Assembly: GCA_017506865.1 (NCBI GenBank)
Contig: JAFCMP010000201.1
Location: 1,054,001-1,118,000, forward strand
Reading direction: 5' to 3'
Length of the DNA stretch: 64,000 nt
Source: Tribonema minus
Lineage: Eukaryota > Sar > Xanthophyceae > Tribonematales > Tribonemataceae
The stretch's first letter is position 1; the number at the start of each line of letters is the position of its first letter. Both the position numbers and the translations under genes were made by a program. The notes below the pieces were generated by a model, which did no database searches, was not told where the DNA came from, and saw only the letters and a program-made list of their open reading frames with translations. Positions 12,648-64,000 of the stretch are shown piece after piece.

Positions 12648-13178
12648 CTAAAATGTGTCTGACGCTGGGAAAGAGTCTACAGGGCCGCGGCCGCGCGTTC
12701 GCGTTGGCCGCTGCGGCGGCAGCACCTGCTCCTGCCGCTGCTGCTGCTGCGGGGAGGGCGGGGAGTGTATGGCCCCGTCGCTGTCATCATCGAGCTCGCC
12801 GCTGAAGTCGCTGTCGCCCTCTGCCCGCAGGCTGCTGCCGTCATCGTACTCGTTGATCTCGAGCTCTGCGTCTGCGGCCTGAGGGCTGCCCACAGCCGCA
12901 CCGCCGCGCGGCATCATCCGAGTGTCAAAGGAAGCATACAGCTCGTCTGATCCAGGGGCGTTGGGGCTGCCGGGCAGGCCTGCGATGCCCGACCCGGCGG
13001 TTACAACGGGCCCCGGCAGCACTGATGACGTGGGTGCGGAGACACGTGAATCGGCCGCGCTCTGCTGATTGCCGCTAGGGCGTGATGGTGGGGCGCTTCC
13101 CCGGGGGCCCTGGCCGCCTGTTCTGCGGCCCACGTGGCGTTGAACTTCACGCTGGTGCAGATCCTCGCTGCTGTTGCC
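12648..13178 (-). other. deubiquitinase segment 13: terminal exon, acidic low-complexity tail
   Basis: The last exon starts after a clear pyrimidine-rich acceptor (TCTTCTTGCGACAG) in phase with its neighbour. It encodes 176 residues rich in Ser, Gly, Pro and acidic residues, including ELEINEYDDGSSLRAEGD, SGELDDDSDGAIHSPP, a short Gln run, and FPASDTF before TAG. Such disordered acidic C-termini are seen in FAF proteins. A second frame at the start of this region (SVKFNATWAAEQAARAPGE) also looks protein-like but runs into a stop near 13001, so an alternative acceptor is possible. Confidence 0.68.
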
Positions 13179-16100: not shown

Positions 16101-19100
16101 ACCCACGCTAGGTCTTCGCCGCGGACCCTGCAGATGTCCCGCGCAGAACAGTCTGTCAGCTGTAAAAAGTTTTGAGTTTGTAACACCAATGCCATCCATA
16201 GGTGTTTGCGTTGAATGGATTTGACGCATCGATTGGCGCCGGTGGATGCTCATCTGGATTCAGCCCAGAATCTGTGTGTTAACTGTCGCATCACCCTGGA
16301 ACGGAAAACTGCGCGTCAACGCTCTCGTGACACGTAATCAAAGACCACAAGGAACCACCGGTAAACCATTACGGCATGCCAGAGACGCTGTGTACCGTAG
16401 TAAACGGATTCAAATCCCCCCCCCCCCCCTTACCAGACCCCCCTGGTCTTGATGTTTTGTGCTTCTTGTTGCCAAGACAAGGGCCACTTTGTACAAGACC
16501 CCCCCTTCTTGTAAGCTGATCCAAGATGACCAGACAAGGTGTGGTATTGATTTCCGCCCTTAAATCTGGTCCGTTTGCCCCATGTGGAAGTCCGTGTGGG
16601 CATGATGCATGTGTGTGGCTCACGCCCTTAGTTGCGCCTGCCAGTTGCAACACTTGCACGCGCTCCCAGCACAGCCAACTTTGAATGTCGCGCAGCTGTG
16701 GTGTAGGTATGCTGCGCGCTTGCTGCGCTATGTAAGCCTATGTGGCTCATCTACGTAGGCTATCTAGCGACTTGAACGCTTACAAGCATTATTTGGTGAA
16801 GCAAGAGGCATATTGTGCTGCACGATGCTGCAGATACACTTGACAATCGGGGAGCTGGTGTTCCTACCAGCGCCATCACTTGAGTGACCAGCACGTCAGG
16901 CTTTTGCTGCCTGCTCTCAAGTGCACCTTCAAGTAGCTTGACTTGCCAAAGACAGGGGGAAGGGGGGGGGGTTGTCGACACGAGGCTCGGAATGATATCA
17001 AGACAGGGGGAACTCTGTATGAGAGGGGGTACATTGTAGAGTGCCCCCCCCCTGCTTGCCAACAATTGGGCCTGATAACAGCGAGGAAGTATATGCTGAC
17101 CGTTTGCTATGGTATGTGTGTATCAGGTGGACATCCACTCACCGCTGGTGGAGGAACCTGCTGAACGCAGCGCACGCGTTCGCCAGCTGCATCACCGCCC
17201 GCCCATACTGGTCCACAACCGCCCAGAGCGCCGTCAGCTGCTGCTGCTGCTGCAGATACCGCGCACCGCGCAGCGACGCCAGCTGCTGCCCGGCTTCCAT
17301 CTGCTGTATCGCCGCCAAGTGCCCTCCCGCTTTCACCAGCCCAAGCTGCGACTCCCAGCACGCGTACTGCAGCCTCTGCACCTGGTACTGGTCCTCAATG
17401 TCCAGTATGGCAGTGAGCAGCTTGACGAGGTTTGTGAGAGCGACGTCGTCAGCGTCGTAGGAGCCGTAGTACGCGGTCGCGGCGGGGGGGATCGCGGGCT
17501 GGCGCGCTAGCTGGAACAGGCACGAATCCAGCAGGCGCTGCGACGTGAACTGCGCCTGATACGCGCTGCACACGCGCCGTGCTATCGCGCAGCCGATGGG
17601 GAGTGGCCAGAAGGCGCCGCCGCTGAACGCCTCGCCGTATAGGGCGTACTCGCACAGCGCATGCTGCGACAGCGGCGGGATGGGCTCCGCATCCGCTGCC
17701 GCCGCTGCTGCTACCGCAGCTGCTGGTGGCGTGCTGCTCTGCTGCTGAGCACTGGTGGCGCTGCCGCCGGCGCTGTCGGTGGTGGCGGCGGCGGCGGCGC
17801 CGCGGCTGCCTTCCATCGGCGGCGACCTATGCGCACGCCACAATGTGAGGAGGAGGGGTAGGGTCAGGGTAAGCATGCGAGACATACCAGTTGACGGTTT
17901 TGAGGTCTCGTGATGCAGCTATGTGAAAGGCTTCAAAGCCCTGTGTCCTGTGTGTATGCAATACACTTCAGGTGGTGTCAGTAGTATGTTGATGAAAGTA
18001 CAGGTCTTCCGGTTAAGGGAAATGCATGCCGTTGCAGCAGGTCGCAATCAGGGTGGCCGCACACTCAGCTCAAGCCTTTCTTTGATCCCCTTTGTTTCTG
18101 CTGCGGCAGAGGTGGACTGGCTCTCTTGGACACTGCGATAGATGCATAACATCGCGGAATACGAAGCATGTAACAAGCCCTAACCCTGCCAAACACAATG
18201 CAAATAAGACAGCTAGGCCATACGGTAGGTATCAGTATAGCCTCATCATGAGCGACTTTCCCTCAGCGTTTGCAACAGTGCTCACCCAGAGTCAACTGCC
18301 ATGCCATCACCCTCCTTCGCAGGCGCCGCCGCTGCCGCAGTGCTGCTGCCGCTGCCGCTGCCGCCACCACCGCTGCCATCAGAACCGGCGCTGGTGCTGG
18401 GGGTGGCGGCATGCTGCTGAGACACGCGCTGCGTCGTGGGCGCTGGCGATGCGGGTTTGTCCAGCGGAGGCTGCACCATGGTCCACTCTTTGCCCTGCAG
18501 GATTTTGTTGAGGTCAGGACCGTAGTCCTGGGTGGCCAGCTCCTGCCACACCTGAGTGTCATTAGAGAAAGGGTTAGGGTTTAGTGGCGTCGATTGAGTA
18601 GAGTTAGGGTTAGTGACGTCATGGGTGGCCAGCTCCTGCCTGAGTGTCACTAGAATTAGGGTAAGGGTTAGTGATAGCGCAGCAGTGTCAAGACAGCTGC
18701 CCTGTTGTCCGTCAGTGCTGTCAAGTGACGCGTGCCTAGACGTCATGGTATGACATCACGGGCGGCGTGGCTTACGGGCAATGTGGCACCAGCAGTGGCA
18801 TGCGCATCAGCATACATCAGTTACGTACTCCAACACACTAATGGCATTGATGATGGCATGCCGAAAACGTTCTCCAGGCAGCGCAATCCACTACGCACCC
18901 AAGGCACACTGCTGTAGTTCATGTAGCTGCAATCAGCCAATTCTTACAGCTCATTGAGCTACCGAGAATGAGTAGCTCATGCCCTACACTGTGTATGCAG
19001 TTTGGGCATGCAAAAAATTAGGCAAGTGCAGCCTCTCGTGCGGAAGAGAGTGGTGAAGGGCACAATTTCAGTGTGACTTGGCTTGATGACGAAGAGAAGA

Positions 19101-22100
19101 TCGAGTCTTCAAAGTGGATGGTTGCTACAACCATTCACATCAGAGCTGGTGAGAGCACCTCGTGCACTCAAGTAGGCTTGAGCACTTGAGCACTTCGCTG
19201 GTAGGCTGCGGAGTTGCCCGTGCAAGTCCGAACACGCGCAAATAATGCTGCACACAAGTACAGTGCTCTACGAGTTCACCAGCAGTTCACTCACAGAGTC
19301 CACCAGCGCAAGTCCACTGATCTTCACCCTGTACCACTCCAGGAACCCTGCCAGGGTCAGATTCTGAGTCTGCTCTGACTGGGCAAACTGGTTCAGGACG
19401 CTCTTCACCTGTTTTATGTGGCAACAGACGGAAATGGCAAGGGCAGCAACAGCAACCTGAGTGTGTGACCGCATACTAAGAACATGAAAAGCCACATGCC
19501 CGCTCTTCTTGTCGTCATGAATCATGAATGGGAGGGAAGGAATGCTCAGTCCTCTTGGTGCTACCTACCCTGGTCACAGTGCATCAACAATCACATGCAG
19601 TAGACCGCACTGAAATGCTTGCATCCATCAGATGAGGTAAAAAGAGGTGACTGTCACACCAATCATGTTGCAACACGACTCTTGTGTCTCAGGGGGCTGG
19701 ACTCTGTGCAAACGTCATTCCGTGTCAACCTGCCAGGCACATCAAACTTGTTAGTTTTTGGGTGAACTATCCATCTACTACTTTTGAAGTATATGCATAC
19801 ATCCTGCCGCCCAAGCCTCCAGTTATTACTCTGACCATGCGTCAAAGTCGCAACAGCGTTCAGCAGCGGCGATGATGACAAGGCTCAAACTAGTGCCACT
19901 GATAGATCCAGGATGGCAATCCACTAGGATCTCACTAATCATACATACCAGCCAGCAACTGCACAGCAGATGCACACACATGCAACAGTTGGTGTCTTGA
20001 AAAGCACTACGAAGTATGTACTCATCGCCTACCTGACAAACCAATGCATCATATGCTCTGTAACTTTAGGAGCGAGCCGCTCTGCCCCCACACCACAAGC
20101 CTCACGAACCACTACTTGCACATCCCCACCTCAAGTGTGAAACTTCAACTTGTGACGCACCGTGGACTGGTCCGAGCCGTTCATGTGCACGGCGTGCAGG
20201 TACTCCCAGACGCCCTTGGCATCTATCACCACTACGCACACATTCATACGTCAAGTATGAAACTTCAACTTGTGACGCACCGTGGACTGGTCCGAGTTGT
20301 TCATGTGCACGGCGTGCAGGTACTCCCAGACGCCCTTGGCATCTATCTCATCCTCCACCGCAAACGCCTTGAAGATGTCGCAGAGGACCCTCTCGCACTT
20401 CTCCGTGAGCTTCATGCGCGGGTCTGCGTACACGTTCTCGCCGTAAGTGGCTCGATACGCTTCCGATGGGTCCGCACGCTCTGAGGCGCTGGTGTCTTTG
20501 CACACCAGCTCCTCTCGATCCGGCTGCAAGTAGGTCATGCAAATGTCATGAACGACGTGAAGGGTCTGAATGATATGTTTCGTAGAAGAAGAAAAAGCAT
20601 TGGCAATGATACATGGTGCAAGTGGGTCATGCAGATGTCATGAAACGATGTGACGTACTGAATTATGTTTCGTTAAAGAAGGAAAAGCATTGGCGATAAT
20701 ATATGTGTTGGGCAGGCAAAGCGCGCAAGGTTTCGTTTATACTGCCTTGCATGCGGGGCAGTGCTGCAGATGCACTGGTGCATAGCCCTGCACGGCCAAT
20801 GCATTGCTGTTCTAGGCCAATGTTTCGCCATTCTGGGGCAGAGTGTTTGCAAAGCGAGGCAACATGCAGGCCATAGGAAATGTGGACATGGCAGTGACAT
20901 CCGTTCAATCATGCAGGAAGCTATGTACTTCAAGCACTTAAGGCACTTAAAATAGAAGTATGTGCATTTGCCTCCATCTTGTTCTGCTGCTACATCTACA
21001 TTCACAAGAATCTGCCCAGCCCTCCCTGACCGTCAGAGGGCAAATGTGGTAAATCAGTGTAGCAACGCGTGTTGGACCAAGTCAACAACGACGAATGCAA
21101 TCGTGACAACCACACGGACGACACCGCGTGTTGAGAGTGAATGAATGAATACATGATTGCAGGAATGGATGAATGAATGATTGAATGATTGCGTGCACAA
21201 TGGATCATGTCAGCGCTCACCACTCGCAGGCCCATCATGACCGCAATTGCCTCTGGCGCATAGATGAAGTCATTCGGCCGCATGCGGTGGCGCTGCGTGC
21301 TCGACTGGATTTGCTGCAACACAGGGGGGCGCCAGGCACCATGGGTATGTACGTATGCCGGTCAGGGTCGCGATGGCAGCAGAGCTGAGCACTGATGCAC
21401 TCATGAGTGCGCTGAAAGGGGTTACTGGTCACTACTACACATAGCTGGCCACACAATGAAACATACACATTGCCATATTGTGCGTGGGCAACATTCAAAC
21501 CCTGTCCTTGAGTGTTGACGTTATGCCATCCTATTAAACCCCTTCCTTTAATATTGACTTCATGTTACAGTGGTATTACATCATACACAATGAGAGCGCA
21601 AAATGGCATGATGTCGATGCACAGAGCAGTCAGCTCCAAGCCCGCAGTGTTCTGGCGCAGATTTGGTGCTTGTGGGAGAACTCATTGCAGTCACAATCTT
21701 CAGCAGCGGTGCATTGTAACAACCTGATAGGCACCGGCACATGCAGGGGGCTCCGGTGCACTCACTACTACAACACAGCTTGGTGGACCTGCAGCGAGGC
21801 TCCGCAGTTCACAAGACCACATCTTTGCAGTACATGCATACTTTAAGTACAAAGTTCGTACTTGGCGGTACAAGCTGCGCATCTCTTCACACGCGCTATG
21901 AGCCAACAGCCTCGTAATTATAGCAACACAATAGAGAGCAGAGCCCCGCATTCAAGGCCTTCAATGCAATACCAACACTGCTGAACCGCAAGCGAAGTGA
22001 TGCAGACAGGCCTGCTGCTATCATGCATACACCAGCTACATTTTTGTACTACACATCTCTTCACACGCGCTATGAGCCAGCAGCCACGCTGTGTGCGCCA

Positions 22101-52100: not shown

Positions 52101-55100
52101 CCGCTCACGCACTTCTGCGTGCAACACTTTTGTGGAGCTGCAGCATGCAACCAGCAATGTTCAGCTTCAAGGTGCGGACACACATTGGACACAGTGATGA
52201 GTGCGCGGCACGTCACTACTCCTTAAATAATGAATTGGAGAGGAACAGCACAAGTACTTCAAGTTGCAGGCACGCATCAGACACAGCGCTCAATCTGTGC
52301 TCGGACACCCGCGAGAGCTCGCACACATGGCGCATGGGCCTATCGTGTCAGATTTCAAGCACGCCATGCTCGTCCTTCGCTTGCATTCTACACCAAAAAA
52401 CTTACAAACATCCTCTATCACACATCCGAATACGTGATCGTGAAACTCGCCTGCGAGCTCACACACGACGCCCCCCACGTCGCGCGGGTCGAACGTGTCA
52501 AAGATGAAGCGCGCCAGCTGCAGCGCGCGCCGTATCGCCTGCTCCTCGCTCTCGCTAAGCACTGCCTCCCCATCCAGCCCGCGCCGCTCCACGTACTCCA
52601 GGCACTGCTGCAGGTAGCGGTGCTGGTGGGCGTAGGGACCCCGGCCCGGCGGCAGTTGCGCGGTGCTGCTGTCGAGCGCTGCTGCGGAGGCGGTGGCGGT
52701 GCTGAGCATCGCTGCGGAGTTGTCCAGCGCGGCCGCCGCGCTGTTGCGCGCCGCATGCAGCATGGTGCCGAAGAACTGGGTGATGGCGTTGCCGGCCTGT
52801 GGTGGTGGTGCATGTGAGAAAAGGGGTTAGGGTTGACAATTAGGATGAGGGTGAGGGTTAGGCCGAGGATTAGGCCTAAGCCTAAGGTGGTGGTGAGAAC
52901 CAACAACTGGTCAATATGAGACATGTGTACGCACTGATCCTTAGATGGCGATTGGGAGTTTCAGCAAGTGCGGAAAGTGTCACGTCGCGATGCTTTGAGG
53001 TCTGAAAGTTCACCACACAAAATCTAGGACATTGTTGTCTTCAATGGCAGTTGAGAAGTAAGAGGAATAAATCATGCCTAGCCCTGGCCTCCACTTTCAC
53101 CATCACTTGCTGCCATAGCATATTGACAAAGCTATGCTCGAGCAGTCAAGCAGGGCACCAGAGTGCAAACAAGATGCTTGAATGAGTGATTTCCACGCAC
53201 ATGTCCTTTGTGACAGGCAGTTCTTTGCCACTTGACGCCGTAACGTAGGACATCACTGCGACCCTAAACTTCAAGACAAAAGGTACAGTGTACCTTGACC
53301 GTGCATAGCGCATCGGCGGGTCAGGCTTCTGCAGTGCCTGACTGCAACTTTGAACTTGAAGTAAACTCTACAGTGACCCTGACCTCGACCAGTCCTCTGC
53401 AGCATTGCGCAGCTGTAGCAAGCACCAGTACATCTACGTCAATTTGAAGTGTGCGTCAACTCGGGTGCCCAACTGTATCTATGAAGATCAAGTTGGACTA
53501 ATGTCGCGTGACTGCAGGCTTCAGCAGCAGTGCCCATCTGTAAACCTAAGCTTGAAGCAAACTTTGCGGTAAGCCTGACCTTGTGGCATGAGAGGCAGTC
53601 CTCTGCAGTAGTGCATTAATTTAATTTGATTTTCTTCAACTTTGAGTATGCATCAACCCTGACCTTGTGGCGTGCAAGGGCGGGCTTCTGCAGCAGCGAC
53701 CACAGCAGCTCCAGCATGGCACTGCCCACTGCCTCAGACGCCCACAAGAAGGTCTGCAGAGCCAACAGAAGCAGAGCAAGAATGAGCAATCGGCAGTGAA
53801 ACCCAGGGAATGACTCCGGCAGTCAGCAATTCAAACCAGGGGACTACTCCAACTCCTGCGTGCAACTCAAACACGCCTGGGGCTGTAACAGCCGCTGCAG
53901 GGGGGCCGGGGCAAGGTGGATCCCAGCAAACCTAGCATGAGAGAGTAGCGCGTTTGCGTGTGACAGGTTTATGTGCATTATACATACTTCGAAGTACATG
54001 ACAGTTACATACAGTACAATAGAGCAATTACATGCGCATGGCGCGCAGCGAGGAGCCGCACCAGCCCCACAGGTACCAATGCGTACGTACGTACACATGT
54101 TATGCAGTGTACACGCCAAAATACATGCAGCATACGGTGTGAAGTGCATACATTCGGTATGATAGATGCAGCGAGGCTGATATGCAGTACATACTCCAAA
54201 GTATGTGCATACGATATGAAGAACATACAGTATGATGGCAACTCACATGCGCATGCGATGCGGCAAGGCGCTGCACCAGCTCCACCGCCTCCGCCAGCGC
54301 AGTCGCGCCAGCGCCGTTCCCTGAACCGACCACCAGTTCCTCACTCTTGCTGCTGGGAGTTGCGGGCATGTTGGCTGCGGCGTTGACCTTGTTGATCAGG
54401 TACACAACGAGCTCCGGGGCTGCGCAGCGCATGAGTGTAGCCAGCAGGGCGTAGACCTCCGACTGCAGTTCCACCTCGGCCTGGGGTGAGGGGGGGGGGG
54501 GGTAATAGTTGGTGAGGGGTATCATAGGGGAGGGGGGGGGGCAGGGTGAGGGTGATAGTTTGTGAGGGGTACCCTAAGTGTCGTACGAACCATTGGTGCG
54601 TAAAGCACCAGCACAGCGCTCCACAACACAGCGTGTGCGTAGTTGAATCTTTGCACAGAAACAGGAGACCGGTTGTACAGGAACACGGAAGGATGACCTT
54701 TGATGTCACATCACCATGCCCGATTTTGTGCACACACACGCGCTACACAGGCTCCTGCGCCAGGTGCAATTGCGCACGAGCACCGCTCAAAGTCAACTGG
54801 CGCGCTTTGTTTTCTCGAGCCCTTGTCTATGTCCCTTGATGTGCCGCACGTTCCTGCACAGACTGTGTACGTACTTCAACTGTCCCTTCAACTGCTGCAC
54901 ACACACAGCTACATACATGCCCTACACATACTGCCCTGCGCAATCTCAGCGTGAAAATGAGCATACCGTAACAAATGCCCTACACAGACTGCCCCTGCGC
55001 AATCTCATTGCGAATTTGCATATGCGGCTTGCACACACCTTGCCCACACAGGCGGCCCATATGAGGTCGATGTGTGCTGCCGTCAGGTACCCCGGCATCT

Positions 55101-58100
55101 GGCTGCAGCGGAAACAGCACACGGGAGGCAGGTCACAAAACATCAACGTCAAACACTGGTCTTGAGTCAGCAGCAACAGCGCACAGCAGGAGGGTCACAA
55201 GATACATCAAGATCAACAACAACTGGTCTTGCCCGAGACCGTCAGCAACTACACTCGACAACATCAGAAGCAAGAAGCCTGTGACTTGCCGCTGCAGTGC
55301 CTTCACGCTGTATTTGAAAGTACTAGACGCAGCGCGAAGACCGGAAAAGGCATGGACTCTAATTGTGTGCGCCAAGAAATGAGATCGATAACGTAGTTTC
55401 AACATCCACGCAGCGTGTCAGTGCGCACACACAGTAACAGCATCAGCATACGATCGACATGAGTTGGATGCAAACTGGGTCATTGCTCAGGTAACCCCCC
55501 CCTAACCCTCACCCTCTCCCTGACCCTAATGCTGACCATGACCCTAGACTGAAGTTCAGCCACGCAAAAGCGAGACAAGAAGCAGCCCTATCTCATCATC
55601 CCTAGCCTGGTGCTCCAGCCTTGATTGTCCTGAGCCTAGCCTCATAATTAATTTTAAGCGCATTTCAAGTACCAGAGCATTGCCACAAGCAGTAGACCCT
55701 TGCCAACACTGTGTGATCCATGTCAATGACTACTACTGTACACTGATCGGTCAGTCAGTAAGATCAGTTGAAGATAGTGTGCTGATGCGCAGACAAACCT
55801 CGACAGAACACACCACACGTGAGGAATGTGAGCAGTGGCCCACTACCTGTAACCTGACACTACCTGTAACCTGAAAACAAACCCTAACCCTAACCCTAAC
55901 CCTAACCCTAAGTCAACCCGATCCCTAAGCAGCAATCCTGTCCCTCATTCCGACGCAACACACCTCACAAATAGACCAGGCACTCTTCTGCAGCATACTC
56001 CTGCTGATGCTCATCACGTGCCTGCACGATGCCGTTTCGCCAGACTTACTTCAAGCATTTGACTGGAGTTTGCCGTTTCGCCAGATTTACTTCAAGCATG
56101 TATTGAAGTTCGCCGCGAGCGCAGGGACAACACCCGTACACACATGAATGTCATACTGGAGGCCTCTATGTTGCATTCAGCGGCAACAGCCACCAAACTC
56201 CGTTGCCTACAACCTGTATCCTACACATAACGGTCATTATCAATTCATCTATCATAACCCTAGCCTAATCATCGATCCTGACCCTAATCCCGACGCAACA
56301 CACCACACCTGAGAAACTTGAGCAGCGGCGTGTAGCCAAACACCGTGGCTCACTATCTCTAACCTGAGCCTCGTTATCGGCCGTTATTGATCATCACCAA
56401 CGCTGACCCTTATCCCGATGCAACACACCTGAGAAACTTGAGCAGCGGCGTGCTCCTGCTGACCACCTCCCTGTGTATGCCACTGCCAAACACGTCCTCC
56501 ACAACTCTGTTGGCAATGGCCCACTTCGCCACCTGGTGCTCCTGAAATCATCATGAATAGGCACCGGAGGTTGCGTTGAGGTTAAACGCGAGCACCTGAC
56601 AAGACATGCGTCTGCAAGCAGTTGTTGCCATTGCTGAGTTGGCAATGGCCCATTGTGCCGCCTCGTGGTGATGAAGACGACATGTGTCAAGCCTAACTTT
56701 GACTCGGTCGTAGGTTTGAGCTAGGTTACACAATGTCACGCTTTGTTACATCAACATTCACCCAACGGCACCCTAAACACACACATGCGCGGCCTGCTTG
56801 TGTGACCTTACAAGGGTGAATGTTTTCGGCACTGCTGCGCATCACAATAAGCTACATAGCACAACCATGCCATCACCATCACGGTGATGTATATGTACAC
56901 AGACACACACATATTACTTTACGACACACGTAGTGCGAACTCAGAGTAGAGACTTGGGGGGAAAGGGTGTGTGCGCAGCAGCAGTGCAACTGCCCACCCA
57001 GACCAGGTACAGCCTGTTGCACTGACCCCCCCAAACCGAGCGATAGCTTTCACTTTGAGAGCAGCACCGTAGAACATTCCTGCAACTCTCCTGTAGACAG
57101 TTTCTTCCTGGGGAGCGTCATCCTAGGAGGCCATCAGGTTCATTTGCTGTTGTAGATGATCCTCATCACCAAATTCATCTCTTTGTGCCACCATCTAGAG
57201 CCTATAGGTCATTATATCTGCCCCACAAGCGCCCCGTTCCCCCCCATTCCCCCAAACAAAGAAAAACTGCGACAATAATGCTCCACTACAGTATACATAG
57301 GGGTCGCATGGCAGTGCTCACAAGAGTGTCCGTCTCGTCGTGACCCTCTGGGATTACGCGGCCAACGGGGGTGAGTACAGGGGGGGGGTCTTTGCCGCTG
57401 GCCCCAGTGCAAACGGCCGTCATCCAACCATGCCGCGGGGGCTCCTGCTCGTCCTGACGCAGGGTCTTGTGCTGGTAGTAATCCACATCCTGCAGGTCAG
57501 GAGGGCAGGGTTTACGCTTTCAGGTCAGGTAAAGACAAACCTAGGGCTAGGAGTAAATGAGGCACAGTAGAGATCGACATACTGCAAATTGCAGTTCAGG
57601 CACCAGACACTCAACAACAGGGATAGTAACATTGAGGTAAGCTCAGAATTGAGTGCTGACAAACTTGCAGTTTCTGTGGGGTGAGACCAGGCAAATGACA
57701 TCCTGAGGCAGTGGCAGCGATTATGGGTTGGCAGCAAATGAAGTTGTGTCAAACCTGGGCCAGGCATGTGGTATAAACAGCAATGTACACAGCGCTGCTC
57801 AATCCCTCAAGGCTTTTGAGGGGAGGACACACGGTAGCGACAGCTTCAAAATCAGCTGTCCATGACTGTACATATCTTGTGGACATGCGGTGCAGAGAGC
57901 CACAACAGTTGGAGCAATGAACTGCATGACTCGACAGCATCTGCTGATCAGCATGATTAATATGCACATACTGCAAACATGCTTTTGGACACACATCTGA
58001 AATGAGAAAACGAGAATCTGCAATTTGCTGATGGCATATTGCTTAAGGCCTCCAAAGATGTTGTACATTATGTGCCAATCGTCGTACTCCTCATCGGGCC

Positions 58101-61100
58101 AGTGAACGACCATGAGAACAACCTTCTGCAAAATGTGCACAGTGCCACCTGTCTTGTCACACACACGACAGTTCATATACAGTACACTCTTGCACTGTAA
58201 CAGTACACGCACCTTGTCCGTGCCCGGCGAATCGGGGTGCGCGACGCTGATGAACCAATTCTTTGTCTTGTTGCGCATGGTGCAGCGGAACAGTGTCAGG
58301 TTGGGGGGCCTCTCCGGCTCGGGGGTCCCCTCCGCAACTTCAATTGTGTACTTGGGCGACCCATCCTGACCCGTGCCCGAGTATCGGTAGCGCCCATTGG
58401 CCTTCTCAGTTCCGGCTCCCTCCACCACGTACTCTCTGCAGATACATACATACCACGGCAATGTCAGTGCTCAGTCAATGGCGTTCCGCGTCCCTCTACG
58501 CAAAGGAATGCGCCGTCGTGTGTGATGTGTATAATATAACTTCAAGTGAGCTGCCGCAGCCACGACTGTGTGGGTGCAGGATCCCCCCTGGACGTGTCTA
58601 AAACATCAACTTTGCTCGTGCATACTGTTTAAGTAAATGCATCCAGGTATGCAGCAGTAACAGGCATGCTGCCAACTTTGCTAGTCTACCTGACTGATAC
58701 TTCCTCCAATTGATGGCAGTGTAGATGCAGCGCCGCTTTGCCTGTACAAACCTTATTCTATTCCCACGCATCCATAGCAGTGTTGGCGTAATTGGTGAGG
58801 TACACTCTCAGGCAACCAAATCAAATTTCCTGCAGAAAGGCCAGCCCCCGCCAGCAATGTGTGGTCATCTCCTCACCTGGGGGGAGGCCGAGCACTGGGC
58901 CTTGCATGGGGGTACACAGCCTTTTCGCGCCCTGAGCAAGAACTAGTAAAAAGTACACAGCCCTTGTAACGCAAGAAAATTGAATTTTCCACAGAGAGGC
59001 CAGCCCCCGCCAACAATGTATGCAAAATCATCTCCTCACCGGGGGGGGGGGGGGGGGGGGGAGCACTAGTCTAGGTCTTTGCATGGGGTACACGCCCCTT
59101 GTAATGCCAGAAATCAAAATATATGTAGAGGGGCCAGCCCCCGCCATCAATGTGTGCAAAGTCATCTCCTCACCTGGGGGGGGGGCGAGCTTCTCCAGCC
59201 GTCTCAATCAACTCAGGGACTTGCTCCCAGCCAAACAAGCGCAGCGGCAGCGAACCACTCCTCAGATACTTCAACGTCAGCTGAAGCCAGAAGTCAAAGA
59301 CCTGGTGGAGGGAAGGCGATTGCGCGAGTGGAGTGTCAACTTCAAGTTGTATACAGGGGACCCGGAGCAGAGCACAGCGTCATTGTTGATTGGCACAGAC
59401 CGATAGAAGTGGGCACGCAGCTGCAGGCAATCCCAGGGCTAGGGTTAGGGTTAGGTTTAGGCTTGGAAAAGCAAGAGCTCACCCATCATTGCCTCTTGTT
59501 GTTTTGAGGTAATTGGGTCAACTGAGGCTGGAGTAGGGGCAGGCTGCCCTAGCCCGTACCGCAATCATAACCCTATCGCCCACTCAGCATGAGCTGCTTG
59601 CTTTGGGCTCTCAGGTCTCAGTGGCCTGTACTGGCTGCTTCCTCAAGCAACTAACTACCACACTTGAAGTACTGAAGTCAGTAATAATCCCTTGTGCAAG
59701 TTGTAGACATTGACAAGCCAGACCACTGATTATGCCAATGCCGGGCAGTCTCCCGCCTGCCACTACATATCACGCATCAGCTCCTTCAGCTTTCATCGGC
59801 CAGTAGGAGCCTTGCATACATACATATTATGCGTCAGGGACAAAAGCAACAGCGAAGAGCAGCACTTGACAACTTCCTTGATGCACATCACTAATAGTAG
59901 ATAAAGGCTGCGCATAGGTTAGGGCTGGGTTAACCTATCCCTTTGAGGGTTACCTATCCCTGTAGGGGTTGAGGTTAGGATAAGCCCTAAAACTAACCCT
60001 AAAGGCACCGTCACGAGACTGACAAGGCATCATGACACCAACCTCTTCAGAGTTCTCAGGACCATACCACCCCATGATTGTTTTCAAGGCCCGCAAGATG
60101 TCGCCGATTGTCTGTTACATCAAGACAAGCAGGGGGGTAGCGGTGAGCTTGAAAGTGACCTGAAGATGAGCATTACGCTGAGATTGAGGTGCGGGTGAAG
60201 GGCGAAACAAAATGCCGAGGGGTCCAGACTCTAGTATACCTACTGTTGGGCCATGACATTGCTGGTAGGTAGTGTTTCACACTAGCATCTGAGAGACAAG
60301 GGTTGATTGAAAAGCATAACCTGCCTGTCTGATGGCCTGATTAAGGCAAGTGCACTCCAATATGGCTAACAATATAAGGTGCACGCAATACAAATGAGTC
60401 ACCCCAGCACAGTGGCAAAGACCACGCCTATGTGCTGTAACACAGAGTCACCTTGCAGATGGGGCATTCATTGGGGATGGGACCAGGGACCGGTCACAAA
60501 TTGGCCACAGAAGGTGCCGCAACCAAGCCCACCCAGCACAGACACACATGCAAAGCCATCAAAGGGCTCATGACGCATGAAAATGTGGTGAGAGCGGCCC
60601 AACTTCAAACCAGATGTCAAATTTTCAACTACAGCAGAAAAGGCATATGGCCCTACTTCAACATTATGTTGAAACTTCAATTACAGGTGTAGGTTCGCCA
60701 AGGGTATGAGGGTACGTAGGTATGCCTTACCTCGCTGAGCTCTTTCTTGAGCTCATCCTCACTGAGCAGCAGCATCTGCTCCATGATCAGTTTGCACAGG
60801 TATGTGGTGCCCTCGATGTCATCGGTGCTGCTGCAAATGCGCAAATAAGAGGACGGAAAGCGACGATGATAGTTAGAGGCAGTGCACTGACTTGACCATC
60901 CTGTTACAACGACCAATAACAGTAGTGGGATGGCACAGGCAACTGTTCTTTCCGACACCAATGGCAGCCCCTGTGAATGATGACAAAGCACTGCGCAGAC
61001 TTGACCCTCATGTGCGCTGACTTGACCCTCATGCCAGGTGCCCAAATGACAGTGCATGTCACATGAACCTATATCAGGCAACGACACCGGCCACGTGCCA

Positions 61101-64000
61101 TTTAGTGAGGAAATGCAGCACCTTGCTACATTCCCCACATGGCCCAGTATGTGCATGCTGCATCAATCAAGTGTCACGGCATGGTATGTGTGCTGCATGC
61201 TTCATGATATGCTTGTCTGCTGTTGCAAAGCAGGCCGCAAGTTGAACGCATGGGTATCGCATCCTGGCGATAGATATATACCAGCCTCGCTGAACACCAA
61301 TGACCAGCACACAATAAATGCGAAATTGGAATCGGGCTACATCATGACCTCATCGCACGCATTCATTGTCAAATGGTGCTGAAGCAGCAGGCACTACATA
61401 CTGCAAGCTCCAGGCGGCAGCATGACCAATTGATGGCCAAATCAAAGTTTGGTCTTCATAACATGACACCGTGATTACAATAGACCACACTTGCTAAAAC
61501 ACTAATGCATGTGTATGCTGGCATCCCAGAAATGACACGTAACGCAATCTCTGTACTGCTGACATCTTCAGATCCTGACTTCGTCATTAAATTGTAGATT
61601 TCTAGCACATGTTTACATGTTTTGAAAGAAAGAGGTACTGTGCTTTGCCGGTTATCTGCATGCATGGCATCAGCCGCAGACTATCGAGTTGCAGTCACAT
61701 GTATTCCAACCCACCCGTTTGCAAACCACACTTCCACTGATGCATGTATAGAACGCACAACTGTTACATAGCGTTCCATGCCACTACTGCACTTAGTGGC
61801 ACGCAAACAACCTTCGCATAGAAGTATACAGTACTTGAAAGCATCCCACACTGCTTGCACCTGTGGCAACAGCACCGCTCTTCGTCAAAACCGCTTGCCA
61901 AACGCAAGCGACACCGCCTGTGACTGTGCCTCGCACGAATCACATGCATAAGTTCTACTTGTAGTACCGTTACCCAAGCAGTTTGCATCTCTGACCATAA
62001 AACTAACCATAGCCCTAACTCTACCTTTCTACCCACGCCATTCACAACATACCAAATATATGCACACTGGTGCGGTGGATGTATCTGGCAAGCACCTCAT
62101 AACTCTGCCTTGTACCCTAGTCCTACTGCTAACCCCAACCCTAAGCTTCGCTTGGCAAACACCACGCGTAACATTCCAAATGCATACTGCACCATCGTTG
62201 AAGTACGTCATCATTGAAGTACAGACTGTTGAAGTTGACATACCTGGCCAGCACTTTGCTCTCCGTCATCGCCTGCACCAGTATCTGCGTCTGCTCCGCC
62301 CCCATCCATCCTGCGGCCACGCTCTTTGACACCGGCGCAGGTGCTGGGCCCTGCAGCACAGCGCCACCTGCGACCTGCTGCGGTGCGGGCACCGACGCTT
62401 GTGCCCGAACCACCCGCAGCAGCTCCAGCAGTGCATCCACTCCCTCGTGCCGGAAGAACTGAGGAGGAGAAACGCAGAGCCAGCGCCGTGGGGTTGTGCC
62501 ATACTCACTAGGAAACACAAATTTCATGATAAGATCAAGAATGTTGTGCATGTGGTACCTACTCCACTTTGGTTAACGCACGTGTTGGAATGGTGGGAGG
62601 GGGCAAGTGCGTGCATAGAGCTAAGTGCATGATTTTGCAAATGTGAAGTCTAATGAACAAAGCGACAGACGCTGTCAGAAGAGAACATGATCATAGCACA
62701 TAATTGCCAGTATTAGTGTTTGAGTTGTATGAGGGCTATGGTAGTTGCTCAGCAGCGGCACAGGTAGCAACCCTAAAACCGAATTCGGTGATGCTTGCAA
62801 GCAACTTGACTGATACATGCATAACCACATGCATACATACACACGCTTACCCGGGCTCACACAAGATGGCATGCATCGTCCCTCCTCGACGAGCCTGCCA
62901 TACATGTATACCCCATACATACAAAGTCGCACTTACACGAGCTCACCAAGAGTGGCATGCATTGTCCTTTCGCCATGAGCCTGCCACTTCGGCTGATATG
63001 CAACCACAGTCATTACATGCGCCAGAAGCTAGCTAATGAGCTACCAACTGCCACTCACCGTGTCGATGCACCGCAGGCGAACCTCGGGCGCTCCAACCTG
63101 GTACGACCAGTGAGGGGAGCGGTGCCCCTTGTAGAAGGGCCTGTTGCTGTCAAACATCAGGCACAGGGTCCTCACGAACTGGCGTTGGGCGTGACTCATG
63201 AGCCACACCAGGATGACTATGGCCTGATCCAGGCTGCGCTCCACGCAGCTCCGCTCGTGCTGCCCGATCTGCCATGCACGTTAATAATGAGGTCGAGGGT
63301 CGTGTTAATGCAGAGTCACGAGCAAGCACGCGTTATCTGTTGAGCAAGCGTGTTTGAGTACAAGAAGTTCAGTGTTGAGGCGCAGGTGAAGTGTGAGGTC
63401 AAGTAGGCCGAGGGCTTGCCGCATGTAATGCCAGTATGCAGCCAACATATCGCTCAATCGGATGGCTGCTCACATAAGATGGACTCATGATTGGACAGCC
63501 CGCACACATTGCAAGGAGTACATCAGCTCAATACTCCACTGGCAATGACAGCCAGTATGGCAGCTCACATCAGTTTCTACATGCAAGCCATGCGACTAGA
63601 GAGCAGCGACAGCTGTTGCATCAGAAAGACGCTCTGCGAAGGCAGGCGACGGTTTAGCGCTGTCATGATGTACTCTGGCTTAGTGGACCATGCCAGACAT
63701 ACATGCATATAAACACACTTCAAAGTTCATGGCTTACTAGTGATGCTCACACCAGCAACACGCTCAACCTGCCATTGATGCAGCCTCGCTGTCGGAACCA
63801 GCAGGCATTGGGAGATAAAGTTGATGTGAACTTCAATAGTGACGCGCGTACCTTGGAGATCTGCTGGTCCAGCAGAATGCTGGTGACCTGGTGAAAGCAG
63901 TCTCGAATGAACGACTGCGTTTCCTCCTCCTCCACCCACTGCCTCGCCTGCGTGAACGACTTGACCGCCAGATCCCAGCCCACAGTCGCGCTTTTTGCCA
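12648..64000 (-). CDS. giant USP9X/FAF-type ubiquitin carboxyl-terminal hydrolase (5' end outside window)
   Basis: A cysteine protease that removes ubiquitin from proteins; members of this family are very large and mainly cytosolic. About 60 exons fill 51 kb, and phases agree at almost every junction I read. The visible part is about 3,610 residues, already longer than animal USP9X (about 2,550), and the N-terminus lies beyond base 64000. Family evidence is the full USP signature: Cys box GYVGLKNQGCTCYMNSLLQQ at 37103-37171, NDASEF, a GCSH/CDKC zinc-ribbon-like pair, LILHLKRFDLDY, and the His box QGGHYYSFIKE...WFKFDDDD at about 28400-28475. FAF-type evidence includes LGVETLWRIVL upstream, a ubiquitin-like fold, CCFGG...ALMLFYEK after the core, and IEDQYQVQRLQ in the C-terminal half. 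Two beta modules and an EF-hand-like insert are additions I do not know from USP9X. Exon lists are in the segment entries. About 80 percent of the gene is intron. It ends with a TAG stop at 12648-12650. Confidence 0.88.
14164..14185. repeat. interstitial telomere-like block (CCCTAA type)
   Basis: More than three perfect CTAACC units lie 11 bases from the donor of the 14196-14394 exon. Confidence 0.75.
14196..15475 (-). other. deubiquitinase segment 12: second GAG/NGxY beta module
   Basis: Exons 15207-15475 and 14196-14394. After an Asn/Asp/Ser-rich linker the module reads YTVHGAGVREVNGDYHRC, then CPMYEMPTEF, then FQLFRCRLDQQHQRWYLSIVPQG | QRPGTNQDIDFYEASV. It copies the layout of 57322-58435 step for step, including the position of the intron before 'PGT..D.DFY'. 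The two copies lie at opposite ends of the visible protein. An additional possible exon in the intron upstream (about 15871-15952, AELHHLVSRLEFHCYDD) does not join in phase at its best donor and is left out. Confidence 0.72.
14715..14759. repeat. 22-bp tandem duplication
   Basis: The unit actcaaacttctaacccgag occurs twice in direct succession within an intron, next to a degenerate CCCTAA block. Confidence 0.7.
16022..18551 (-). other. deubiquitinase segment 11: distal C-terminal region
   Basis: Exons 18286-18551, 17143-17826, 16868-16910 and 16022-16159. The 684-nt exon encodes SQRLLDSCLFQLARQ, DDVALTNLVKLLTAILDIEDQYQVQRLQ and a helical QQQQLTALWAVVDQYGRAVMQLANACAAF. It parallels the 'LDLLLQILLIEDSWQTHRI...CIKCMVALF' region near the USP9X C-terminus. 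The 43-nt exon (QQKPDVLVTQVMAL) is short, but it is the only reading that joins its neighbours in phase. The next reads LTDCSARDICRVRGEDLAWV. Ala, Gln and Ser/Gly runs are frequent. Confidence 0.72.
18620..18655 (-). repeat. exon-edge echo, acceptor side of exon 18286-18551
   Basis: The sequence gggtggccagctcctgcc...tgagtgtca, which spans the acceptor and first codons of the exon at about 18530-18560, is repeated here in the upstream intron after about 70 bases. Confidence 0.7.
19295..20523 (-). other. deubiquitinase segment 10: EF-hand-like insert
   Basis: Exons 20281-20523 and 19295-19408. The protein reads KCERVLCDIFKAFAVEDEIDAKGVWEYLHAVHMNNSDQST | VKSVLNQFAQ...NLTLAGFLEWYR. Two helix-loop-helix units with a short beta-like loop (EIDAKG, QNLTLAG) and a helix after each resemble a degenerate EF-hand pair. 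The loops lack the full set of acidic calcium ligands, so calcium binding is doubtful. I do not know this insert from animal USP9X. The donor end of the first exon has a nearly identical 120-bp tandem copy downstream. Confidence 0.6.
20127..20246 (-). repeat. 120-bp tandem exon-edge echo, nearly identical
   Basis: This unit matches 20247-20366 almost base for base. It contains the last 70 or so bases of exon 20281-20523, the GTGCGT donor and the start of the intron. Only a few substitutions separate the copies, so it is the most recent echo in the window. Use of the distal donor would lengthen the exon. Confidence 0.85.
23400..23520 (-). repeat. echo copies upstream of exon 23018-23360
   Basis: The acceptor-side sequence cctgcgcgagtcagagtt...gcagtcgttgggagtacaaagtg is repeated at least twice with decay (cctgcccaagtcagagtt; gcagtcattatgggtgcaaa; gcagtccttatggg). 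Confidence 0.65.
25366..25430 (-). repeat. exon-edge echo of exon 25594-25833
   Basis: The last 60 or so bases of the exon with the donor (cctgcaggttagacagccag onwards) recur here as cctgcaagctagacagccag, 230 bases into the downstream intron, with few substitutions. The peptide would read like the original (SRICEAFMREVWLSSLQ). Confidence 0.82.
26140..27021. mobile_element. non-autonomous hAT-like DNA transposon
   Basis: Imperfect terminal inverted repeats, CAGAGATGGCGCGTA on the left and CAGAGGTAGCGCGTA read inward from the right (13 of 15 match), bound an 882-bp element. Both ends are flanked by the 8-bp direct repeat CTCTAAAT (26132-26139 and 27022-27029). An 8-bp target duplication with T at position 2 and A at position 7, together with CAGAG ends, is the hAT signature. 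The subterminal regions repeat short motifs such as ACGCGTACGAG and CGTACCTGT, as hAT transposase binding sites often do. No transposase domain is visible in its frames. It sits in the intron between exons 27393-27541 and 25594-25833 and looks fairly young. Confidence 0.85.
27770..27785. repeat. GTAG microsatellite
   Basis: Four direct GTAG units in the intron after exon 28375-28540. Confidence 0.7.
27940..28352 (-). repeat. array of about six echoes of the His-box exon 3' end
   Basis: Copies of the donor end of exon 28375-28540 (gtctcaccggggtcgaatgg, with the following coding bases) occur near 28313, 28232, 28161, 28093, 28028 and 27944. Some share a secondary variant (ggcaatcacatgaa) absent from the exon, so part of the array was amplified from an echo rather than from the exon. 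The farthest copy (27944-27990) keeps an open reading, FEDNDVLPFDY, between an AG and a GTGAG. Confidence 0.8.
30353..30562 (+). repeat. dispersed repeat, copy 2, split by a telomeric insertion
   Basis: Homologous to 3113-3230. This copy is interrupted by a telomere-like block with a duplicated flank (see 30400-30527). It lies in the 1.5-kb intron 29792-31271. The adjoining 29812-30429 minus frame (205 codons, Ser/Arg-rich) may be part of the same unidentified element; I recognise no domain in it. Confidence 0.65.
30400..30527. repeat. telomere-like insertion flanked by a 35-bp direct duplication
   Basis: The telomeric block 30435-30492 runs as about four TTAGGG units and then flips to CCCTAA units. 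It is bounded by 30400-30434 and 30493-30527, which are identical at 34 of 35 bases (cattggtgaaaggcacatgc onwards). The related copy at 3113-3230 has this flank only once and no telomeric block, so both block and duplication are derived. Confidence 0.9.
30949..30982. repeat. head-to-head telomere-like palindrome
   Basis: About three GGGTTA units are followed directly by the inverse CCCTAA units, giving a near-perfect palindrome. Confidence 0.85.
31028..31205 (-). repeat. three echoes of the 3' end of exon 31272-31411
   Basis: The donor end of the exon (tacctgttgttgagcttgac plus tctcaaaggtggtgta) occurs at about 31028-31090, 31108-31145 and 31160-31205 in the downstream intron, with varying decay. 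Each copy keeps the ACAG|GTA-type junction. A short AT dinucleotide run lies next to the last copy. Confidence 0.8.
32405..32485 (-). repeat. echo of the 5' end of exon 32199-32352
   Basis: The first 50 or so bases of the exon plus its acceptor and upstream intron (cgagcagccacgaggaattt, cgcaatagggtacgtgagca) recur here, upstream of the exon. The copy keeps a plausible acceptor. Confidence 0.8.
33405..33450 (-). repeat. echo of the 3' end of exon 33640-33719
   Basis: The junction sequence cacctgtctagcagcttggtgcag recurs as tacctgtctagtaggtgcag, followed by aactcgctgacgtc, in the downstream intron; a more decayed piece (gcttggtgctg) lies near 33540. Confidence 0.65.
35610..35672. repeat. 20-bp tandem repeat, three copies
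   Basis: The unit cctcgcacctaacccctaga is repeated three times with single-base changes. A further degenerate copy grades into CCCTAA sequence near 35718-35750, so the unit may have arisen from a telomere-like block. Confidence 0.75.
36724..36790 (-). repeat. echo of the 5' end of exon 36528-36671
   Basis: The run gcagcgctgcagatggcctc, with following bases across the acceptor to tagcacaaaccaca, is repeated upstream of the exon as gcagcgctgcagatggcctc ... tatcacagaccaca. Confidence 0.78.
40259..40345 (-). repeat. echo of the 3' end of exon 40409-40605
   Basis: About 85 bases matching 40390-40475 (cactcgtgaattcatcacct, catgagcttgacactgagcg) lie downstream. The copy retains the ACAG/GTGATG junction with few substitutions. 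Confidence 0.82.
42458..43060 (-). repeat. seven-copy echo array of exon 43103-43426 donor end
   Basis: A unit of 75-100 bases (gctgcagtgctcagcatacc, then ctgcagcgcgcgcgccgccg) recurs from about 42458, 42551, 42630, 42731, 42822, 42907 and 42998, ending beside the true exon edge at 43085-43145. The echoes share a ccagatctacatacc tail that the exon lacks, so the array grew from a first derived echo. Most copies keep a donor-like junction. Confidence 0.85.
46180..46245 (-). repeat. echo of the 3' end of exon 46349-46452
   Basis: The junction gagcactgcagcactcaccc, continuing to gctgagcaatggcg and cccatgtgcag, recurs here with few changes (cgtcgtgctgagcaatggcg). Confidence 0.8.
47048..48581 (-). 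other. deubiquitinase segment 5: ubiquitin-like domain
   Basis: Exons 48380-48581, 47682-47751 and 47048-47098. They encode LEPFDVEVHPLDTVATLKSR | VLIKQGLRSLALDKTRVLSCGVE | EGAELIVNIN. The pattern 'V.V...DTV.TLK..V......L...K.RVL.CG.E' is that of a ubiquitin-like beta-grasp, which USP9X also carries upstream of its catalytic core. The 47682 exon ends in a GC donor (GCAAGT). Its acceptor, ending ATGAG, is unusual in lacking a strong pyrimidine tract. Confidence 0.72.
48280..48335 (-). repeat. echo of the 3' end of exon 48380-48581
   Basis: The sequence acctggacttgagcgtggcg, continuing accgtgtccag.gggtgcacctcc, is repeated almost unchanged downstream, together with the CATA-rich donor side. 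Confidence 0.85.
49345..51058 (-). other. deubiquitinase segment 4: FAF-type helical block before the ubiquitin-like fold
   Basis: Exons 50863-51058, 49921-50308 and 49345-49569. The middle exon contains HPAYSCFYAFFVHLSDLA and LGVETLWRIVLTTGDKNVAD. These correspond to the 'YFxCFxxFF' and 'IGLDYLWRVVI' stretches of animal USP9X, one of the clearer FAF-specific matches outside the catalytic core. The third exon (RQDLVGSIFERLQAVLND... RGQRLLKLLQEAIEAAEG) is helical. Phases agree (0, 1, 1). The 50863-51058 exon is flanked by echo copies on both sides. Confidence 0.8.
50600..50810 (-). repeat. echoes of the 3' end of exon 50863-51058
   Basis: The donor sequence tacctggtgcgagatgagcg, then ctgc..gggcttgagg, recurs near 50755-50800 and 50600-50645, with a shorter piece near 50714. 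The copies share the motif caatccagtgcactgt, which also lies beside the true donor. Confidence 0.8.
51125..51345 (-). repeat. two echoes of the 5' end of exon 50863-51058
   Basis: A unit of about 125 bases carrying the acceptor and first codons (gcctccgatgcaccgtggag gtac) plus upstream intron (agtgacaatg.cagcga) is present at about 51040-51110 (true exon), 51160-51235 and 51285-51350. This exon therefore has echoes on both sides. Confidence 0.82.
51580..51672 (-). repeat. echo of the 3' half of exon 51769-51925
   Basis: About 95 bases (cctgagaatctccaggcgct onward to ttgcccacac) match 51768-51860 with scattered substitutions, including coding bases. The copy has lost an open frame. Confidence 0.82.
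53285..53615 (-). repeat. four decayed echoes of the 3' end of exon 53664-53753
   Basis: Variants of gaccttgtggcgtgcaaggg + cgggcttctgcagcag appear near 53292, 53378, 53508 and 53573. Decay increases with distance from the exon only roughly, which argues for repeated independent copying. Confidence 0.7.
55795..56340 (-). repeat. scattered echoes of the 3' end of exon 56429-56541
   Basis: Pieces matching cgatgcaacacacctgagaa and acttgagcagcggcgtg occur near 56290-56330, 55950-55985 and 55800-55835. A 5'-side piece (gttggcaatggcccattgtgccgcct) lies upstream near 56637-56665. Between them is a tandem gccgtttcgccagacttact pair at about 56030-56090. Confidence 0.7.
55880..55911. repeat. interstitial telomere-like block, five units
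   Basis: The longest uninterrupted perfect CCCTAA run in the window. It lies in the 1.3-kb echo-rich intron 55103-56428. Confidence 0.85.
57322..59301 (-). other. deubiquitinase segment 2: FWLQL helices and first GAG/NGxY beta module
   Basis: Exons 59174-59301, 58213-58435 and 57322-57489. The first reads FDFWLQLTLKYLRSGSLPL...GWEQVPELIETAG, like the helical part of FAF proteins, and ends in a run of ten C that encodes prolines. The second encodes a compact beta module: EYVVEGAGTEKANGRYRY, then SPKYTIEVAEG, then LTLFRCTMRNKTKNWFISV. It continues across the next junction as SPGTDK|DVDYYQHK. The same architecture recurs at 14196-15475. I do not know a name for the module; WY/F-rich, LFRC and PGT motifs suggest a binding fold. 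Confidence 0.75.
58845..59062 (-). repeat. two echoes of exon 59174-59301 donor end, with expanded C-tract
   Basis: The junction ggccagcccccgcc.caatgt + catctcctcacctggggg is repeated near 58840-58880 and 59000-59062. In the second copy the coding C run (ten bases in the exon) has grown to 21 (59041-59061 as G on the plus strand). Confidence 0.82.
60043..64000 (-). other. deubiquitinase segment 1: edge of window, helical repeats
   Basis: Exons, read high to low: 63852 to beyond 64000, 63059-63259, 62244-62458, 60731-60830 and 60043-60111. The first is open to the window edge (VGWDLAVKSFTQARQWVEEEE...). The others encode amphipathic helices, for example DQAIVILVWLMSHAQRQF, GVDALLELLRVVRAQ, TTYLCKLIMEQMLLLSEDEL and TIGDILRALKTIMGWYG, consistent with an armadillo/HEAT-like scaffold. 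All four internal junctions agree in phase. No catalytic motif lies here. The 1.4-kb intron 60831-62243 contains short unassigned frames only. Confidence 0.75.
62846..62992. repeat. intron tandem duplication of about 85 bases
   Basis: The stretch cttacccgggctcacacaag, then gtggcatgcat.gtcc and gagcctgcca, occurs twice with substitutions between exons 63059-63259 and 62244-62458. It resembles the donor of exon 63059-63259 only weakly, so I do not class it firmly as an echo. Confidence 0.6.

Follow-up and report, generated by a model that had tools for sequence, protein, structure and literature searches.

Local duplications in the introns of Tribonema minus cross splice junctions and leave decoy splice sites

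The introns of Tribonema minus (Xanthophyceae) contain many short, local and almost exclusively direct duplications, which occur both within introns and across exon-intron junctions. Junction copies lying inside introns carry decoy splice sites; the donor decoys decay as neutral sequence, while the exon side of the original junction is conserved. The explanation that we favour, which is probably correct though far from certainly so, is that error-prone local duplication acts throughout the introns and that tolerated junction-crossing copies survive as decoys, remaining recognisable through their exon half. The window analysed is a stretch of 64,000 nucleotides of the 158-Mb genome (contig JAFCMP010000201.1, positions 1,054,001 to 1,118,000), and it was chosen for its extreme appearance.

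The window contains a gene for a USP9/24-like deubiquitinase on the minus strand (12648-64000), which is predicted to run ~8 kb past the window end into the extension L026. Exons were modelled with an HMM gene finder self-trained on the window and 24 ten-kilobase stretches, the coordinates of a first-pass annotation of the same DNA being left unused. The model is a single open frame of 3421 residues in 59 predicted exons within the window, some of which are intronic copies of exon edges (hereafter echoes) called as exons, and the predicted protein contains the UCH domain (Pfam PF00443, 2.7e-30). Its top protein match is P0001, a hypothetical USP-domain protein from T. minus in GenBank (phmmer, 2559 bits); the best local BLASTP alignment between the two shows 94% identity over 48% of the query. 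Against the window, P0001 aligns in at least 23 non-echo pieces with 93-100% identity among the listed pieces above 85%. P0001 starts mid-gene, so that the annotated deubiquitinase gene looks truncated or split, and it appears to include 24232-24486, an intron in the HMM model.

Aligned against itself at E <=1e-3, the window yielded 56 local pairs, of which 49 are direct and 7 inverted or palindromic. The first-pass annotation had reported echoes at about 20 of roughly 60 deubiquitinase exons, and its listed edges, together with additional pairs at 41353, 54247 and, weakly, 56541, agree with this estimate. All 14 donor edges on its list (20281, 25594, 28375, 31272, 33640, 40409, 43103, 46349, 48380, 50863, 51769, 53664, 56429 and 59174) were placed exactly by the HMM, and each is overlain by local direct pairs. 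Four of its five acceptor edges (23360, 32352, 36671 and 51058) were also placed exactly, the fifth, 18551, being moved to 18542; local pairs cover 18542, 32352, 36671 and 51058, while the copy at 23360 was recognised only by eye. The dominance of donor-side copies that it described is borne out by 48 donor and 25 acceptor echoes with a placed decoy.

The donor echoes, which like all features of this gene lie on the minus strand, differ in spacing and copy number. An exactly tandem 120-bp duplication crosses donor 20281 (20108-20347; copy 20108-20227, decoy donor 20161), with 91.7% identity between the copies and a TRF period of 120 with 96% matches. The echo of 25594 (25368-25658) pairs 25592-25658 with a copy at 25368-25433 and a decoy donor at 25370; the aligned segment has only 2 intron bases, and the duplicated unit was probably ~224 bp, because the spacer resembles the flank (p 0.02). 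The echo of 40409 (40259-40468) pairs 40387-40468 with 40259-40340 at 90.2% identity across a 46-bp spacer unlike its flanks (spacer test p 0.51). Multi-copy echoes are found at 28375 (27940-28412, from local direct pairs) and at 43103, where an array at 42425-43145 has units of ~93-96 bp and 4.4-4.9 copies by TRF. Two copies each accompany donors 31272 (31033-31314; copies 31150-31202 and 31033-31084) and 50863 (50587-50903; copies 50752-50801 and 50587-50643), and two further copies of donor 59174 are indicated by local direct pairs at 58796-59190. The pair at 33640 (33406-33674) joins 33633-33674 to 33406-33443 with 81% identity over 42 bp, that at 48380 (48269-48421) joins 48359-48421 to 48269-48331 with 92.1%, and that at 51769 (51557-51868) joins 51749-51868 to 51557-51681. 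At 46349 (46184-46400) the decoy is a GC, at 46208, and a telomere-like CCCTAA repeat lies in the spacer. The echo of 56429 (56268-56452) has 87.3% identity, and that of 53664 (53571-53696) is a local direct pair, as is that of 41353 (41193-41372); the latter is missing from the first-pass list, as are the local direct pairs at 54247 (53965-54285) and the weak pair at 56541.

On the acceptor side, the echo at 18525-18673 consists of 18525-18586 and a copy at 18618-18673, that of 32352 (32300-32503) of 32300-32384 and 32415-32503 with 85.4% identity, and that of 36671 (36622-36815) of 36622-36709 and 36728-36815 with 79.5% identity; an acceptor-side array at 51058 (51026-51430) has a unit of ~130 bp and 2.4 copies by TRF. 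The echo of 23360 (23361-23423), seen by eye from the sequence only, places a decoy acceptor at 23414, 54 bp upstream and in frame. Residues 1099-1232 of P0001 correspond to 23416-23015, and the GenBank model thus appears to use this decoy, gaining 18 extra residues. Duplications of the same type also occur away from junctions, such as the intron-only tandem duplication with a period of 210-218 bp at 48614-49044; another, with a unit of 86 bp, was found by TRF and self-comparison at 62813-62986.

The sample beyond the gene comprised 24 other loci (L002-L025), 11 of which lie on the window's own contig. Most tests did without two of them, the satellite-like L025 and L004 (whose ORFs look reverse-transcriptase-like by eye), so that 22 were in use. 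Exons in the sampled loci are HMM predictions, backed by protein matches for L024 and, through tetratricopeptide-repeat chains, for part of L019. Exons below 45 bp and low-complexity hits were dropped, and the event tests also left out any cluster that exceeded 1500 bp or touched intergenic DNA. At a threshold of 30 bits and with simple repeats unfiltered, the window and L002-L025 together gave 921 local direct hits, as against 5 in block-shuffled controls. The unselected L024, which encodes a P5A-type ATPase (PDB 9jbm, E 1.4e-48), is richer in echoes than the window gene itself: seven of its eight predicted exons of at least 45 bp have copies at one or both edges, and 12 of its events cross a junction and 1 is intron-only. 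Downstream of its exon 3604-3792 lie three copies spanning the donor, one of them 97% identical, and upstream lie five copies of the exon start, three of which span the acceptor.

Direct local hit pairs outnumber inverted ones by 337 to 13 at 40 bits or more, L025 being left out. The distance between repeats is 60-250 bp in 194 of 281 events, distances below ~50 bp being undetectable by the search. Because blastn suppresses hits close to the main diagonal (within 50 bases), duplications of short period escape it; the absence of events below 45 bp is a limit of the method and not evidence for a minimum size. The median period of isolated two-copy events (n=64) is 126.5 bp. The spacer is shorter than 12 bp in 11 of these 64 events, and among the other 53 it resembles a flank in 20 (p < 0.05) and does not in 33. 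Spacing varies from the exactly tandem 20108-20347 to the unlike spacer of 40259-40468. Since several copies of ~90% identity have spacers unlike either flank, simple tandem duplication requires a second step.

According to the favoured explanation, the introns of T. minus would have been enlarged repeatedly by short duplications of this kind, nearly always direct and mostly at distances of 60-250 bp. Their likely source would be staggered breaks repaired in an error-prone manner, through fill-in and end joining, and sequence between the copies may later have been lost or gained. Fill-in and end joining are described as requirements for small tandem duplications where breaks have 3' overhangs (PMC8355091). 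Insertions in rice are reported to include duplications, whether tandem, partly tandem or non-tandem, of sequence lying within 200 bp of the break, and are ascribed to asymmetrical nicks (Vaughn and Bennetzen 2014, as summarised in PMC7407515). Duplications within exons would alter the protein and mostly be removed. When a duplication crosses a junction, the outer, original junction would still work, so that the event would be tolerated and the copy would become an intronic decoy; the decoy would then drift while the real exon is conserved, and its exon half would remain identifiable for longer than a copy of intron alone. Tolerance may be greater for donor-crossing than for acceptor-crossing copies, as the original donor would still come first.

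The main alternative is a mutational process that favours exon-intron borders, for example through breaks or stalled copying, with introns growing by repeated junction duplication. This we consider unlikely on the evidence below. Marginally less likely still is the fuller proposal that junctions are the preferred duplication sources, that introns are built outward as ladders of junction copies of different ages, and that the spliceosome tolerates decoy donors of equal strength ~100-200 bp away.

In coverage, pairs span 14 of 60 donors and 6 of 61 acceptors in the window, compared with 8.1% of inner intron positions, and 44 of 189 donors and 34 of 189 acceptors in the 24 other loci, compared with 15.6%. 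Over 29 blocks, the ratio of spanning at the junction to that in the intron 60-200 bp away is 1.09 (0.92-1.28), and to that in deeper intron 1.66 (1.19-2.33), the window alone giving 3.32 (2.19-5.99). Neutral simulations with purifying selection gave 0.48-0.58 and 0.28-0.38 for the two comparisons, and the observed values are higher. Donor coverage in the window is 0.255 at the junction and 0.106 at 201-300 bp, while the simulation has no junction peak. The simulations, whose parameters were our own choice, combined a neutral process with purifying selection on exons, with indels and with deletions of several sizes. In the coverage, event, simulation, exon-masked and codon-position tests, the echo exons of at least 45 bp called by the HMM in the window (25370-25423 and 42928-43020) were counted as exons; they were removed for the decoy-offset, decoy-score, young-pair and decoy-mismatch analyses.

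Counts of events point the same way. In the extended gene stretch (the window with L026-L027), 17 of 33 events cross a junction, as against 5.6 expected with placement over the stretch and 7.1 with local placement (2.38-fold), and in the 22 other loci 41 of 81 do so, as against 20.3 and 25.4 (1.61-fold locally); the simulated ratios of observed to expected are 0.82-1.08 and 0.93-1.21, respectively. The remaining 16 of 33 and 40 of 81 events are intron-only. With placement over the locus, the excess in the other loci survives filters on exon strength, with 28 crossings against 11.8 at score 8 (2.37), 16 against 5.8 at score 15 (2.74) and 5 against 3.1 at score 25 (1.61). Without the three richest loci, however, the local ratio falls to 1.32 (18 against 13.7), which is near the upper simulated value. 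Young pairs, for which the conservation of exons matters little, cross junctions in 13 of 27 cases at 88% identity or more, against a simulated proportion of ~0.30 (p 0.036), and in 9 of 17 at 90% or more (p 0.04), but in only 4 of 9 at 92% or more (p 0.27) and 1 of 3 at 95% or more. The exon 3604-3792 of L024, with junction-spanning copies on both sides, also favours a process acting at borders.

Masking of exons, which leaves intron sequence alone to be compared, gave a less consistent result. Unmatched coverage within 10 bp of donors exceeds that of mock exons both in the window (0.125 vs 0.031) and elsewhere (0.135 vs 0.079). The matched test over 138 introns, however, found no clear junction enrichment, with ratios of 1.07 (0.63-1.60) for donors and 1.30 (0.88-1.82) for acceptors, both intervals including 1; for donors the gene stretch alone gave 1.78 (0.70-3.88) and the other loci 0.82 (0.38-1.28). 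This comparison errs on the side of caution, since its control is raised too by the decoy copies that lie within introns.

A moderate excess of junction crossing is therefore likely to be real in the counts, and a residual of 1.3- to 2.4-fold over local placement is unaccounted for by the explanation that we favour. Pure ascertainment, by which conserved exons merely keep their copies recognisable, was rejected as its source, since the simulations failed to yield the observed excess, and for the same reason a residual unexplained part is kept. A mutation process directed at junctions is not supported by the matched test. The first-pass annotation had proposed such a separate process: its expectation that crossings would be unusually frequent holds against neutral simulation in the gene and in the 22 other loci, but the same duplications also give intron-only copies, the matched intron-only comparison lacks a clear excess, telomeric repeats are not concentrated near junctions (see below) and donor decoys are neutral. 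Whether duplications are commoner at splice junctions than elsewhere has, in sum, a mixed answer, with event counts above simulation and a matched exon-masked test without clear excess.

Interstitial telomeric repeats are frequent in the same introns. In the window and L002-L027, with L025 left out, 131 TTAGGG/CCCTAA repeats were found in 237.6 kb of intron and 1 in 65 kb of exon; the intronic rate is ~8 times that of six control hexamers, and by sense strand there are 84 TTAGGG and 46 CCCTAA. Two contigs (C2 and C3) begin with CCCTAA arrays, so that the telomere repeat of T. minus is probably TTAGGG. Insertions of telomeric repeats are described as scars of break repair in mammals (PMC2246262, PMC7215372). 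In T. minus their density is no higher up to 200 bp from a junction (5.4 per 10 kb; 40 repeats in 74.1 kb) than farther away (6.6 per 10 kb; 68 repeats in 103.2 kb), which speaks against a border-favouring process. Nor do they show a preference for flanking direct repeats, which accompany 11 of 118 telomeric repeats and 220 of 1935 random non-exon sites; the telomeric scars are thus not tied to these duplications, and telomerase-filled breaks were rejected as a general cause of the spaced copies. At one site, a 36-bp direct repeat with 97% identity (30399-30434 and 30492-30527) surrounds a head-to-head (TTAGGG)4.5 and (CCTAAC)5.5, an arrangement to be expected if the ends of a staggered break had been filled, extended by telomerase and joined.

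The copies carry decoy donors and acceptors and are of many ages, in line with the decoy sites and varied divergence described in the first-pass annotation. It is very unlikely, in our judgement, that they are functional, with decoys that tune splicing or provide alternative exons and are kept by selection. Decoy donors have kept GT in 38 of 48 cases, with GC in 6, and decoy acceptors have kept AG in 23 of 25. The 37 of the 38 GT decoys that were scored have a mean of 4.98, compared with 5.01 for real donors, and 36 of the 37 exceed the 10th percentile of real donors, a point in favour of function; yet this cut-off is also passed by 23.5% of the 14727 GTs in introns, so that strong-looking unused donors are not rare in these introns. 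In a set of 49 donor and 27 acceptor pairs, real and decoy GT mismatch at 9 of 95 positions (0.095), while intron 31-60 bases away mismatches at 161 of 809 (0.199). The GT mismatch is half of the pair rate, which fits a fixed real site with only the decoy drifting, at the neutral rate of one lineage, and selection on donor decoys was rejected on this ground. Decoy acceptors mismatch at only 1 of 49 AG positions, as against 0.20-0.25 in intron; this retention above expectation is a hint in favour of function which is not relied upon, and the apparent use of decoy acceptor 23414 in the GenBank model points the same way.

Other features of the copies speak against function. The offsets of the decoys show no frame bias, with 24 of 73 being multiples of three, and frame-preserving selection was accordingly rejected; the extensions that their use would produce contain a stop in 65 of 73 cases, which argues against regular use. 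The exon-derived parts have changed at all codon positions: in donor echoes the mismatch at positions 1, 2 and 3 is 0.119, 0.142 and 0.202 in the other loci and 0.095, 0.132 and 0.152 in the window, and in acceptor echoes it is highest at position 3, with positions 1 and 2 varying. In favour of the preferred explanation, junction pairs compared by their intron parts are similar in age to intron-only pairs, with median identities of 0.808 (n=65) and 0.812 (n=32; p 0.16). To judge from these patterns, the decoy sites are apparently ignored by splicing, and the real donor may be chosen over its decoys simply by coming first.

Introners have been reported as a source of new introns in diverse eukaryotes (PMC9860276), but the idea that introner-like or other mobile elements brought the splice signals into these introns is scarcely credible, as the copied segment is the local exon edge, each copy is at most a few hundred bases away from its source, and 20100-20400, the one echo-bearing segment tested, had a single genomic match, such repeat counts being lower bounds. 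An artefact of assembly or haplotype merging has a negligible chance of being the cause: the window comes from one assembly, but its junction pairs are at most 92% identical, which is far beyond sequencing error, many ages coexist, and conservation by codon position is seen on the exon side but not in the decoy. The statement in the first-pass annotation that copying is continuing would likewise rest on this spread of identities, which reaches 92% for junction pairs in the window and 97% in the sampled loci.

The pattern is a variation on known border-crossing duplication, in which existing introns come to hold decoys. Ma et al. (2016, PMC4974935) describe an intron of the potato RdRp gene that was gained when a tandem duplication crossed an intron-exon border. 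The likeness is that tandem duplication over one splice junction moves its signals elsewhere; in potato this made a new intron in one gene, while in T. minus the copies lie inside existing predicted introns, at many junctions and in several genes. In Drosophila, exon duplication followed by intronization has been described (PMC2891723). The AGGT, or proto-splice-site, model of Rogers is similar in that a sequence with splice signals is duplicated (PMC4974935, PMC2891723), but there an exonic AGGT segment becomes an intron, whereas in T. minus the duplicated unit contains a functional junction, whose copy is left as a decoy. The small tandem duplications at overhang breaks (Schimmel et al. 2021, PMC8355091) and those in rice (PMC7407515) are likewise short, direct, tandem or nearly tandem, and local; splice junctions are not the subject of the available parts of these papers, and in T. 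minus the origin from breaks is inferred. Direct repeats near the splice sites of many introns were also reported by Rogers and Bendich in 2025 (PMC11782384); these are of 4-30 bp, are compared between the two borders of one intron and are read as footprints of insertion, in contrast to the segments of ~40-220 bp in T. minus, which reach across one border and are copied into the intron. Among the papers of the open-access literature that matched best by title or abstract start, none dealt with this pattern in Tribonema or at such density, most subscription papers being outside the scope of the search.

The introns of T. minus keep a readable record of their growth, in the form of copies of known source and graded age. 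Two questions become directly testable in them, namely how introns lengthen and how a splice site is chosen beside near copies of itself. They also present a hazard for annotation: besides the apparent use of a decoy acceptor in the GenBank model, the HMM gene finder called the echo copy 25370-25423 an exon, and likewise 3866-4194 in L024.

The plus strand of the window carries a gene at 790-11291 with a GH10 glycosyl hydrolase domain in an ORF (PF00331, 3.1e-06), the model of which is incomplete. The echo that the first-pass annotation had placed at a xylanase exon was not recovered in this model; the one pair detected close to an exon edge there is of 25 bp (9722-9746/9984-10008, 96%) and has 2 bases in a predicted exon. 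Elsewhere in the sample, complex local repeats dominate positions 1-10000 of the satellite-like L025, with 160 hits of at least 40 bits. In L011, a perfect (100%) 94-bp tandem duplication at 5857-6044 holds a telomeric repeat inside each unit, and may be of very recent origin or polymorphic between strains.
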